Below, one piece after another: positions 3,367-24,922 of a DNA stretch of 35,989 bases. The translations under genes and the position numbers were made by a program. The notes beneath the pieces are model-generated. The model had not been told where the DNA came from. It did not search any database and saw nothing but the letters and a program-made list of their open reading frames with translations. Source of the DNA: Streptococcus danieliae (GTDB lineage: Bacteria > Bacillota > Bacilli > Lactobacillales > Streptococcaceae). The stretch's first letter is position 1. Each line of letters opens with the position of its first letter. Location of the stretch: assembly GCF_009767945.1 (NCBI RefSeq), contig NZ_WSRS01000006.1, positions 1-35,989 of the forward strand, read 5' to 3'.

Positions 3367-3395
3367 TTGACAAAAAGGGCTCTTCCTTTTACTAT
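3367..3395 (+). promoter_or_regulatory. Promoter of the alpha-amylase gene
   Basis: TTGACA (3367-3372), 17 bp, TACTAT (3390-3395). The -10 ends only 6 nt before the ATG at 3402, so transcription would start at or next to the start codon (see findings). No AGGAGG-type site lies between. Confidence 0.65.
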
Positions 3396-3401
3396 AGGGC
3401 T

Positions 3402-4865
3402 ATGGAAAGAAATCAAACACTTATGCAATACTTTGAGTGGTATCTTCCCAATGACGGTCAGCATTGGAATCGGCTGGCCGCAGATGCCCCTCATTTAGCC
3501 GAACTTGGGATTAGCCAGGTTTGGATGCCACCTGCTTTTAAAGCCACCAATGATAGCGATGTTGGTTACGGAATTTATGACCTTTTTGACCTGGGGGAAT
3601 TTGACCAAAAAGGAACCGTACGCACCAAATATGGAACCAAGGATGAATACATTCAGGCCATCCGTATGTTAAAAGACCATGGCATCTCAGCTATCGCTGA
3701 CCTCGTCTTGAATCACAAGGCTTCTGCTGATGGACTGGAGTCGTTTAAAGTCATTGAGGTCGACTCCAAAGATCGAACCAAGGAGTTGACCGAGCCCTTC
3801 AGCATTAAAGGCTGGACTCACTTCTACTTCCCAGGTCGTCGTGGGCATTACAACGATTTCCAATGGCACTGGTACCACTTTACCGGAACAGACTTTGATG
3901 CCGGTCGCAAGAAAACTGGTATCTACCAAATTGTCGGTGACAATAAAGGGTGGTCTGACGATAGTCTTGTGGACAAGGAAAACGGCAACTACGACTATCT
4001 TATGTATGCAGATTTGGACTTCAAACATCCAGAAGTCGTTCAAAATCTCTATGACTGGGTCAACTGGTTCATCCCCACAACAGGAATCTCGGGTTTCCGC
4101 CTGGATGCCATCAAACACATCGATTCCTTCTTTATGAAAAACTTCATCCGCGATATTAAGGACAACCTCTCTGAAGATTTCTATGTCTTCGGAGAATTCT
4201 GGAATCCTGATGAAGAAACCAACACCAATTACTTGGAAGACACAGACTACCGCTTTGACTTAGTTGATGTCAAACTCCACTACAATTTCCAGGAAGCTGG
4301 AGAAAAAGAAGCCGACTTTGACTTAACCACCATCTTTGATGGTAGCCTGGTCAAAAACCATCCCGACTCTGCAGTGACCTTTGTCGAAAACCACGACACC
4401 CAAAAAGGCCAAGCCTTGGAGTCAGTCGTTGCAGATTGGTTTAAACCCCTTGCCTACGGTCTGATCTTACTTCGCCAGCAGGGCAAACCCTGCGTTTTTT
4501 ATGGCGACTACTATGGTGTTCAAGGAGCTCATGCCCAAGCCAGCTTCCAAGAAGTTTTAGATAAGCTCCTCATCCTCCGTAAATACTGGGCCTATGGAGC
4601 AGAAACCGACTACTTTGAAGAGCCAAACACCATTGGCTGGACACGGATTCCGGAAGAATTAGACCGCAGCCCTCTAGCGGTTATCCTCAGCAATAAAGAC
4701 GATGCTACCATCTCCATGTTTGTTGGAACCCAATGGCAGGGACAAAGCTTTAGTGACCAACTAGGCCACCACTCAGATACCGTTCTAGTCGGCGAAGACG
4801 GCTGGGCGAGCTTCCCCGTTCACGGCCGCAGTATCTCTGCTTGGACCCTGACTAGTGATTTATAA
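3402..4865 (+). CDS. Cytoplasmic alpha-amylase (GH13)
   Basis: A 487-aa GH13 glycoside hydrolase that hydrolyses alpha-1,4-glucans or maltodextrins. All four conserved regions are present: DLVLNH near 100, GFRLDAIKH with the nucleophile Asp235, GEFWN with the acid Glu265, and ENHD at 329-332 with the third catalytic Asp332. There is no signal peptide, so it acts inside the cell, as the streptococcal AmyA-type enzymes do. The length is normal for this intracellular group. ATG 3402 is supported by the family start (NQTLMQYFEWYLP); the next Met is residue 8. The gene is monocistronic, with a promoter directly upstream and a terminator directly downstream. No cre site was found near it. Confidence 0.93.
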   Translation: MERNQTLMQYFEWYLPNDGQHWNRLAADAPHLAELGISQVWMPPAFKATNDSDVGYGIYDLFDLGEFDQKGTVRTKYGTKDEYIQAIRMLKDHGISAIADLVLNHKASADGLESFKVIEVDSKDRTKELTEPFSIKGWTHFYFPGRRGHYNDFQWHWYHFTGTDFDAGRKKTGIYQIVGDNKGWSDDSLVDKENGNYDYLMYADLDFKHPEVVQNLYDWVNWFIPTTGISGFRLDAIKHIDSFFMKNFIRDIKDNLSEDFYVFGEFWNPDEETNTNYLEDTDYRFDLVDVKLHYNFQEAGEKEADFDLTTIFDGSLVKNHPDSAVTFVENHDTQKGQALESVVADWFKPLAYGLILLRQQGKPCVFYGDYYGVQGAHAQASFQEVLDKLLILRKYWAYGAETDYFEEPNTIGWTRIPEELDRSPLAVILSNKDDATISMFVGTQWQGQSFSDQLGHHSDTVLVGEDGWASFPVHGRSISAWTLTSDL

Positions 4866-23993: not shown

Positions 23994-24022
23994 TTGAGTT
24001 ACTCACCACTATATGTTATAAT
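23994..24022 (+). promoter_or_regulatory. Promoter of the secreted-protein unit
   Basis: TTGAGT (23994-23999), 17 bp, TATAAT (24017-24022), with TG one base before the -10. It leaves a leader of about 100 nt before ATG 24132. I see no LytTR-type direct repeats here. Confidence 0.75.
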
Positions 24023-24131
24023 TATATTGTAAGGGGTTTCAAATTAGAAAGGTTAAAAATTCGGATACGATACTATTTGAAGTCCCAAATCAACATTTCA
24101 TATCCCTTCACCCCAAACAAGGAGGCTCACT

Positions 24132-24707
24132 ATGAAAAAAAGTAAGACAATTATTTCAACAATTCTTTTAACAACCATCTTAGCTTCAACCATAGCCCCT
24201 AATGTTTCAACAGTCTATGCTTTCGAGACGCTACCCCAAGTAACAACTAGTGATACCAACATCACTCCCACTAACTCATTAACAGAGGAACAAATCGACT
24301 TATTAGCAGATGATATTCAAAGCTTACACCCAGATGTTTCGAAAGATTGGATTGAAGAAGTCATTGAACGCCAACTTCAGGGAGATTACAGCCTACCATC
24401 AGATAACTCACCTTTTCGGGTTGCTTGGCAAGGAGTTACAGTTGGACAAATGGGGGCAGCTATCGATACCGCAATTTCTCTTGCTCTAGGAGGTACCGTT
24501 TCTGGACTTGCAAATCTTATTAAAGTTAAGGGGGCCCATGCTGTGAAAAGTGCTATTCGCTCTGCAGTATCCCAATACCTAGGAGGATGGATTGTAAACA
24601 GTGTCTTCATCGACTACGCTGTAAACCTATTCTCCCCAGGAACCTATTTAGCCCAACAATGGGATGCACGAGACTCTGTACCAAATAATGGTCGAATTAA
24701 TTTCTAA
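24132..24707 (+). CDS. Secreted cysteine-free protein with glycine-rich hydrophobic C-terminal region, function unknown
   Basis: This 191-aa protein opens with a Sec signal peptide (KKSK, then an isoleucine/leucine core, likely cleaved after VYA at about 30). An acidic Thr/Asp-rich segment follows (31-90, including EEQIDLLADDIQSLHPDV). From about residue 95 it is amphipathic and hydrophobic: VTVGQMGAAIDTAISLALGG, GLANLIKVKGAHAVKSAI, YLGGWIVNSVFIDYAVNLFS. It ends PNNGRINF. An acidic pro-region before a Gly/Ala-rich membrane-seeking domain recalls secreted bacteriocins, but I recognise no family. AAGGAGG gives a strong start. A 58-aa membrane protein follows after 3 nt. The gene is flanked by its own promoter and a terminator. 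Confidence 0.75.
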   Translation: MKKSKTIISTILLTTILASTIAPNVSTVYAFETLPQVTTSDTNITPTNSLTEEQIDLLADDIQSLHPDVSKDWIEEVIERQLQGDYSLPSDNSPFRVAWQGVTVGQMGAAIDTAISLALGGTVSGLANLIKVKGAHAVKSAIRSAVSQYLGGWIVNSVFIDYAVNLFSPGTYLAQQWDARDSVPNNGRINF

Positions 24708-24710
24708 ACT

Positions 24711-24887
24711 ATGATGAACAAAAAAAAATATTTTCTAATTTTATTGCTAGGAAACCTCCTAACCCTCAGCATCAGCTTTATCCTAACTAGACTCCTATCC
24801 ATGCCCTTTAAATGGTGGAATGTAATCGCCGTTACTTCTTCTGGCTATGTTGTCCACCATTATTTGGAAAAGAAGCGCAATCAATAA
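24711..24887 (+). CDS. 58-aa two-helix membrane protein, possible partner or immunity protein
   Basis: This ORF starts 3 nt after the stop of the secreted-protein gene (TAA ACT ATG ATG), with no separate ribosome-binding site, which suggests translational coupling. The product has a lysine-rich start (MMNKKKY), a helix (FLILLLGNLLTLSISFILT), a second helix (WWNVIAVTSSGYVVHHY), and a basic tail (LEKKRNQ). The layout matches small immunity or anti-holin-type proteins, but I recognise no family. Start could be 24711 or 24714. It ends 5 nt before a terminator. Confidence 0.65.
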   Translation: MMNKKKYFLILLLGNLLTLSISFILTRLLSMPFKWWNVIAVTSSGYVVHHYLEKKRNQ

Positions 24888-24892
24888 ATGAC

Positions 24893-24922
24893 AAAAGAGC
24901 AAGCCACACGGCTTGCTCTTTT
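24893..24922. terminator. Bidirectional terminator between the secreted-protein unit and sodA
   Basis: AAAAGAGCAAGCC (24893-24905) pairs perfectly with GGCTTGCTCTTTT (24910-24922) over a 4-nt loop. It serves both converging transcripts. Confidence 0.92.

Follow-up and report, generated by a model that had tools for sequence, protein, structure and literature searches.

A cysteine-free secreted protein and its coupled membrane partner in Streptococcus danieliae: a probable bacteriocin and immunity pair whose C-terminal domain also ends RHS proteins

Introduction

Circular bacteriocins are glycine-rich, cationic helical bundles whose ends are joined. In EntV, also known as enterococcin V583 or enterocin O16 (ef1097; NF058576; 7roa), the active part consists of the C-terminal 68 residues left after protease cleavage, and a disulfide joins its ends (PMC9562342, PMC6606811); EntV is described as non-lytic (PMC9562342). 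Dysgalacticin has a reported effect on the glucose/mannose phosphotransferase system (PTS) and on membrane potential, and DysI is its membrane-associated immunity factor (PMC8308785). A toxin domain at the C-terminus with an adjacent immunity gene is the classical layout of polymorphic toxins (Zhang et al., 2012, PMC3482391). Here, we compare with these systems a pair of genes, A and B, on a stretch of 35,989 nucleotides (nt) of Streptococcus danieliae (assembly GCF_009767945.1, contig NZ_WSRS01000006.1, positions 1 to 35,989 of the forward strand), hereafter called the window. The pair is very probably an operon for a Sec-secreted bacteriocin with a membrane-acting toxin domain and for its immunity protein. 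What carries this reading is the architecture of the pair, the constant company of B behind A, the persistence of B where A decays, its lower conservation, and the appearance of the C-terminal domain (C-domain) of A at the tips of RHS toxins.

Anatomy of the gene pair

Gene A (24132..24707, + strand) encodes a secreted-type, cysteine-free protein of 191 amino acids (aa), the proposed bacteriocin, and gene B (24711..24887, + strand) encodes a basic membrane protein of 58 aa with two helices and the motif FKWW between them, the proposed immunity protein. A starts with a signal peptide, residues 1-30 (24132..24221, + strand), which ends in VYA, forms a helix at residues 3-21 in the structure model, and has near-invariant P23 and A30 among 16 aligned sequences. 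It is followed by an acidic spacer, or pro-region, of residues 31-92 (24222..24407, + strand) with predicted helices at 52-65 and 71-82, and by the C-domain, the putative toxin domain, of residues 93-191 (24408..24704, + strand). The net charge is -12 in the spacer and +3 in the C-domain. The strong Shine-Dalgarno sequence which an earlier note on this DNA had ascribed to A is present as AGGAGG (24120..24125, + strand), 6 nt before the ATG. The ATG of B comes after a gap of just 3 nt from the TAA stop of A, no ribosome site is visible before it when the sequence is read, and these two features together fit translational coupling. B itself shows two hydrophobic stretches and a net charge of about +7 by the same kind of reading.

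The earlier note had described the unit as a secreted cysteine-free protein with a coupled 58-aa membrane protein, an architecture that our analysis confirms and that recurs in the family. The ending PNNGRINF that it pointed out is present (NNGRINF, 24684..24704, + strand), and the conserved signature is wider, SPG...A...D..D...NNG[R/W/Y]I. It had also set the pair apart from class I and class II bacteriocins, rightly as far as can be judged by eye: A has no double-glycine leader, and the interval between queA and sodA contains A and B only, with no dedicated transporter or modification genes.

B accompanies A and can outlast it

How firmly is B tied to A? A small open reading frame (ORF) with a transmembrane (TM) stretch lies directly downstream of A in 31 of 32 full-length A genes, and in the 32nd (L013; L numbers denote loci) B is cut by the contig end, so that homologues of A commonly lacking B, which the earlier note had named as the finding that would speak against it, did not turn up. 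Linkage was scored when an ORF of 45-130 residues with a TM stretch began no more than about 35 nt from the A stop codon. Applied to the other ORFs that span at least 150 residues in the window and the loci, the same rule picked 15 of 276, and 6 of 197 once repeats and EntV-type loci were removed, one of the six being an A gene (L064) that had slipped past the filter. Near-identical genes were kept among the 32 (L003/L055/L085 and L057/L058); exact or near copies (L005, L010, L045, L054 and others) were left out, as were interrupted or partial genes (L007, L008, L014, L015, L020, L048, L070, L072, L073, L076, L092-L098 and the second copy in L063). The linkage is present in plasmids (L046, L047) as well as in genomes.

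B is also found where no intact A accompanies it. At seven loci (L007, L008, L014, L015, L020, L095, L097) B is open beside a decayed A, L015, L095 and L097 being alike and therefore not independent events; in L094, where A is broken, the B profile gives no match. At ten loci of the genus, a stand-alone B gene with its own ribosome-site-like sequence lies directly upstream of a gene for a bacteriocin-associated integral membrane protein, TIGR01654, which scores above the cut-off in all ten (expectation value, E, from 5.9e-83 to 1.2e-124); these ten are closely related and do not count as ten independent events. Such occurrence of B without an intact A, beside decayed A genes and at TIGR01654 loci, favours immunity over tethering as the role of B.

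In 109 of 113 pairs with A identity above 35%, B is less conserved than A, the pairs not being independent of one another. Between L059 and L060, for example, A is 84% and B 41% identical, and between the tandem copies of L066 the values are 82% and 31%. The B sequences fall into several groups, and F[KR]WW between two hydrophobic helices marks the group of the window (11 of 31). Since FKWW recalls the WxW that lies between the two TM helices of Imm17 (PMC3482391), this immunity family was considered for B and set aside. When B was scanned against Pfam at E <= 10, the matches were just DUF7420 (19.3 bits, cut-off 27) and SxtJ (14.6, cut-off 24.4), both below cut-off.

A B gene appears to have moved to an EntV-type locus in L149, where the ORF behind an EntV-like gene with two cysteines shares 91.8% identity, over 147 bp of its 3' part, with the B region of L013. 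The 98-aa ORF at about 1998-2294 of the reverse complement of L149 reads as the start of a small TM protein joined to a B gene, with a recombination joint near 2136. Two other loci carry broken B genes. L043, which belongs to the same genome as the window, has a frame-broken B close to a Gly/Ala-rich ORF that ends in CWW, resembles class II bacteriocins, and has no match in Pfam or NCBIfam. In L025, a secreted-looking protein of 179 aa ending in HCFG (742-1281), possibly another type of bacteriocin, is followed by a small TM ORF and then by a broken B of the FKWW group.

The C-domain at the tips of RHS proteins

A search across the class Bacilli gave matches in 12 of 319 genomes and in 10 of 124 genera, weak ones included, and showed the C-domain outside the order Lactobacillales; this tally, like those given below for the A1 profile, is an upper bound, since weak matches to the N-terminus only and fragments were counted. 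In L156, the C-domain ends a protein of 1868 aa with a signal-peptide-like start and a Pfam match to RHS_repeat (E 2e-101). In L157 it ends an RHS protein of 799 aa (RHS_repeat, E 3.1e-62), and in L158 it ends an RHS cassette in which Rhs_assc_core covers residues 2-47, just before the domain (E 3.9e-12). L159 is a further small secreted form of the C-domain protein. The A4 profile, made from 29 C-domains that all come from Lactobacillales, matches L156, L157, L158 and L159 with E of 1.3e-26, 2.2e-11, 3.1e-28 and 2.9e-13, respectively (set size 10000), and its best E against reversed sequences is 0.35. The likeness is also seen in direct comparison: the tip of L158 and the Sec-type protein of L064 are identical in 65 of 96 residues (68%), and the tip of L156 is 55% identical to L063 over 99 residues.

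Behind all four genes lies a TM ORF of 59-67 aa, or of 60-67 aa if the RHS tips of L156, L157 and L158 are taken alone. It overlaps the gene before it by 16 nt in L156 and by 1 nt in L158, and follows after 6 nt in L159 and after 142 nt in L157. A domain in the C-terminal toxin position with an immunity-type gene downstream, a mark of RHS toxins, is found here, the gene in L157 standing behind its 142 nt. In the part used here, the polymorphic-toxin census of 2012 lists Tox-WTIP as its one pore-forming domain and contains no NNG string (PMC3482391). L158 contains an array of RHS C-terminal cassettes with differing tips and with small TM ORFs between them.

Distribution and signature of the A family

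When A alone was the query, 15 of 197 genomes in the genus gave a match, among them that of the window; the A1 profile, made from 16 sequences, matched 28 of 284 genus genomes and, in the order, 34 of 395 genomes and 18 of 80 genera. Under a strict count, in which a match needs E <= 2e-7 and must extend to at least profile position 195, 12 of the 80 sampled Lactobacillales genera remain. The homologue of S. acidominimus CCUG 27296 (L044) is 71% identical to A, and its protein is identical to that of L054 from the same genus. Copies of A on plasmids occur in S. dysgalactiae, Enterococcus gallinarum and Lactococcus, where they are annotated as 'hypothetical protein', and the Lactococcus plasmid copy L048 has an internal stop in A. 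No relative of A was found in viral contigs, and a single weak and partial match in phage records (E 0.3) was set aside.

Three parts stand out when 29 members are aligned (A2): a signal peptide, a spacer that varies in length, and a C-domain some 100-120 residues long, which carries the signature given above. A net acidic spacer is found in 27 of 29 members, all but L061 and the truncated L092, and a net basic C-domain in 27 of 29, all but L058 and L061; none of the 29 C-domains contains cysteine.

Neither A nor B has a Pfam or NCBIfam match above cut-off, and the best E among the 29 members is 0.0055 in Pfam and 0.0035 in NCBIfam, with no enzyme or adhesin family in either. The earlier note, which had recognised neither protein and had named a clear match of A to an enzyme or adhesin as an argument against its view, stands in both respects. 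PDB sequence searches with A, its relatives and the family profiles gave no informative match. A profile match in PDB between the spacer helix pair and an RNA 2'-phosphotransferase went from E 8.5e-4 with A1 to 0.067 with the broader A2 and was set aside. In A this match lies at residues 55-91; 9 of 29 members match NF002013 weakly, and the likeness to the phosphotransferase is probably due to chance. The string NNGRIN did not occur in the open-licence literature searched, which does not show its absence from print, and names such as 'EntV-like' and 'dysgalacticin-like' led, in the same literature, to a single unrelated virus paper.

Predicted structure

AlphaFold2 (AF2) models gave a predicted local distance difference test score (pLDDT) of 74 and a predicted template modelling score (pTM) of 0.66 for the whole of A, and of 78 and 0.66 for the C-domain alone. 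The C-domain is predicted to consist of five main helices and two short strands, residues 101-103 (24432..24440, + strand; residues 10-11 in the domain model) and residues 188-190 within NNGRINF. With no other strand in these models of middling confidence, the two would have to pair with each other, and a strand clasp, 101-103 with 188-190, is predicted to hold the two ends of the C-domain together. In fold searches, the best VIA-align Z was 3.5 for the whole model and 6.8 for the C-domain model, within the range of common helical arrangements, and the top rows for the C-domain are mostly carrier-protein-like bundles, which may be a common arrangement only. EntV (7roa) is absent among the fold matches listed, which excludes nothing.

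Genomic setting and control signals

A-B sits on the + strand between two genes that we take from their sequences, rather than from a scan, to be queA and sodA, a third so named being nagB. G+C is 38.5% in the A-B unit, 53.7% in queA, 46.0% in sodA and 45.4% in the entire window. Among 30 queA loci inspected, one of which is the window's own, nagB is near queA in 19 of the 29 others, as in the window. In one of these 29 (L125), sodA adjoins queA with neither A nor B between them; in the other relatives' loci, no sodA was found near queA within 1.5 kb on either side, a range which a more distant sodA would escape. The 10.6-kb locus of the S. acidominimus homologue shares no other protein with the window (E <= 1e-8). 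A-B therefore has the appearance of a mobile cassette inserted at a junction of queA and sodA, where the direction of the event, insertion, is read from the one empty site in L125. The lineage-specific insertion suggested in the earlier note is thus borne out in part, by the empty site and by the unshared 10.6-kb locus, and the empty site is a single one.

A promoter-like sequence, TTGAGT-17-TATAAT with TG before the -10 element, was found by scan at 23994..24022 (+ strand). A terminator-like stem of 13 pairs lies between the A-B unit and sodA (24893..24922); the scan assigns it to the minus strand alone, and the flanks of A and T might allow termination on both strands. Of the 'good promoter' and 'bidirectional terminator' claimed earlier, the stem is there, its use on both strands is a reading of the flanks, and the promoter is plausible.

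At 24028..24041 (+ strand) lies a catabolite-responsive element (cre)-like box for CcpA, TGTAAGGGGTTTCA, with one mismatch, located in the central CG, to what we take to be the cre consensus, TGWNANCGNTNWCA. When 200 nt upstream of A were searched with at most one mismatch, 9 of 31 genes had such a site (in the window, L044, L002 and L060, for example) against 0.48 expected from 60 shuffles each, and three of the sites are perfect; some of the nine genes are closely related, so that the excess stands for fewer independent events. About 80 nt upstream of A, an additional Shine-Dalgarno-like sequence, TTAGAAAGG (24044..24052, + strand), was noticed by reading of the sequence, and it may belong to a short leader ORF. 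Such an extra element is seen upstream of many A genes (the window, L044, L002, L009, L018, L019, L059, L061), and in some loci a short ORF follows it, such as MNIDILEIIWWIGGILKKN in L061; together they may point to control by a leader peptide. The cin-box of ComX, in the consensus that we presume, has no exact site in 29 upstream regions, and the best site of the window has 2 mismatches.

Proposed mechanism and alternative explanations

How would such a pair work? A would be exported through Sec by means of its cleavable signal peptide. Until its release or its contact with a target cell, the helical C-domain, which is cationic and rich in Gly and Ala, is probably kept folded and inactive by the acidic pro-region. 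Then the C-domain, its ends clasped by the strands, would act against competing Gram-positive bacteria at their cytoplasmic membrane, probably by binding to a protein there, or by inserting itself and upsetting membrane function. B, whose translation would be coupled to that of A, would stay in the membrane of the producer and block this action. The earlier note had proposed a secreted membrane-active protein with an immunity partner, and the tests run support it, 'membrane-active' being the part that we infer.

Several observations weigh against this view of the pair as a bacteriocin and its immunity protein. Neither the whole model nor the domain model has a fold match in PDB at E <= 0.001, and their pLDDT values are middling. 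The charges are reversed in L061, with +1 in the spacer and -2 in the C-domain. No B lies near the truncated A of L092, and the stand-alone B-like genes of L037 and L040 have no neighbour of the TIGR01654 type. Small membrane proteins diverge fast in general, so that the lower conservation of B is by itself a weak argument. With 3 promoter-like sites in the region by scan and 4.1 expected by chance, the promoter of A is plausible and not proven. The C-domain has no sequence relation to the C-domains of EntV and dysgalacticin or to circular bacteriocins, and a membrane mechanism can therefore not be inherited from any of them. Finally, killing, secretion and protection are predictions from sequence for every family member found.

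Could A be a bacteriocin of another kind? Its C-domain might, instead of permeabilising the membrane, block a receptor or enter the cell, with B masking a membrane receptor such as a sugar permease. The reported action of dysgalacticin on the glucose/mannose PTS together with the membrane-associated DysI (PMC8308785), and the non-lytic nature of EntV (PMC9562342), are in line with this, and the enriched cre-like boxes may tie production to sugar status. However, nothing in the A family supports a receptor, and the step from cre to a target in sugar uptake is only suggestive; we consider this alternative unlikely, if still the best of the others. A second possibility, that A belongs to the EntV family and has lost its disulfide, draws on the same layout and size, the acidic N-part and cationic C-part, the similarity of signal-peptide profiles, and the B gene joined to the EntV-type locus in L149. 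Profile comparison, however, aligns the signal peptides only, the C-domains alone give a probability of 2.5%, A stays below the cut-off of NF058576, and the C-domains of all 29 members are free of cysteine, which makes homology with EntV improbable. It is still harder to see A as a secreted, membrane-associated signalling or regulatory protein with B as its receptor or tether; the signal peptide of A and the hydrophobic and probably translationally coupled B would suit such a role, but stand-alone B genes beside TIGR01654, B outlasting A, the move in L149 and the RHS tips all fit toxin and immunity better. Least credible is a structural or adhesin-like surface protein with B as a passively co-inherited neighbour, for which the signal peptide and hydrophobic domain might be cited, but no adhesin, anchor or repeat family was recognised, no LPXTG is seen in A, and the linkage holds in plasmids (L046, L047) and genomes alike.

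The bacteriocin-immunity reading can be carried further, tentatively, with chances that fall somewhat short of even. The NNG[R/W/Y]I family may represent an undescribed, membrane-acting, cysteine-free helical bundle with clasped ends, a toxin-immunity cassette traded between small Sec-secreted bacteriocins of lactic acid bacteria and the RHS tips of other Bacilli, accompanied by a fast-evolving two-helix immunity peptide and placed, in part of the family, under carbon catabolite control. If the bacteriocin-immunity reading is true, this is a widespread toxin-immunity family without a Pfam or NCBIfam model in the scans made. A domain up to 68% identical would link free bacteriocins with RHS-type toxins in Gram-positive bacteria and show a toxin changing its delivery system. 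The clasp, in place of a disulfide or circularisation, is a concrete prediction, and a two-gene system with no modification gene nearby would be suited to the study of immunity by a small membrane peptide.

Comparison with known systems

A differs from circular bacteriocins (PF09221) by its Sec signal peptide and long spacer, AS-48 and carnocyclin gave non-significant profile matches (E 2.6 and 1.4), and PF09221 had no match in Pfam scans of A and its relatives, the window's own genome also being negative. Homology was set aside: the score of 17.0 exceeds those of 40 column shuffles (<=15.6), but comes from 8 aligned columns with E 0.018.

EntV resembles A in layout. Like A, it has a Sec signal peptide, an acidic N-part and a cationic helical C-part, whose ends are joined by a disulfide in EntV and by a predicted strand pair in A. 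EntV-like genes, collected with NF058576 from 15 of 395 genomes (3 above cut-off), also have a small TM ORF just downstream in 6 of 11 loci inspected (L141, L143, L147, L149, L150, L151); L142, L146 and L148 showed none, and L144 and L145 were not scored. On the other hand, 7 of 8 EntV-like sequences aligned have two cysteines near the ends of the C-domain (L142 has one) where 29 of 29 A-family C-domains have none, and the NNG[R/W/Y]I ending of the A family is absent from these eight. A is not listed against NF058576 at E <= 10 (cut-off 130 bits), the best match in the window's genome has 12.3 bits and lies elsewhere than A, and 5 of 29 A-family members match weakly (best E 0.012). L142, an EntV-family member above cut-off with its single cysteine, ends in GGINF.

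With dysgalacticin and DysI (pW2580, L050), A-B as interpreted here shares the plan of a large Sec-exported bacteriocin and a small membrane immunity factor nearby; streptococcin A-M57 is placed beside dysgalacticin as a close known system. The first 31 residues of L045 are 61% identical to those of dysgalacticin, and the match of the A1 profile to dysgalacticin covers its signal peptide and N-part (E 3e-8) but not its C-domain; an N-terminal part is possibly shared between the A family and dysgalacticin. Unlike that of A, the C-domain of dysgalacticin has two cysteines and no NNG signature. On L050 (1969-2181, minus strand; 863-1075 of the record), a basic hydrophobic ORF of 70 aa (57 aa from an inner Met) is convergent with dysA. 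We assume it to be the DysI candidate, similar to B in size and two-helix layout; it does not match the B profiles, and homology between B and DysI was rejected. The S. dysgalactiae plasmid of L045 encodes a second secreted-looking hypothetical protein (3385-3891, minus strand), with a weak A-profile match and no family match, possibly another bacteriocin. By prediction, A agrees with Class IIIb, the large, non-lytic bacteriocins such as dysgalacticin, as a secreted protein above 10 kDa with a signal peptide (mature A of about 161 aa, if cleaved at residue 30), and B agrees with a neighbouring immunity factor of that class by position and hydropathy, its protective function being predicted only.

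RHS/YD-repeat toxins of the WapA/Rhs type differ from A in build and share its C-domain. A is a Sec protein of 191 aa with no RHS/YD repeats or core in a Pfam scan, whereas these large proteins carry the same C-domain in the toxin position, with the gene of a small membrane protein behind it. Taken together, A probably works in the manner of EntV and dysgalacticin while standing, by the tests made, outside the EntV and circular families, and its C-domain is the one that it has in common with toxins of the RHS type.
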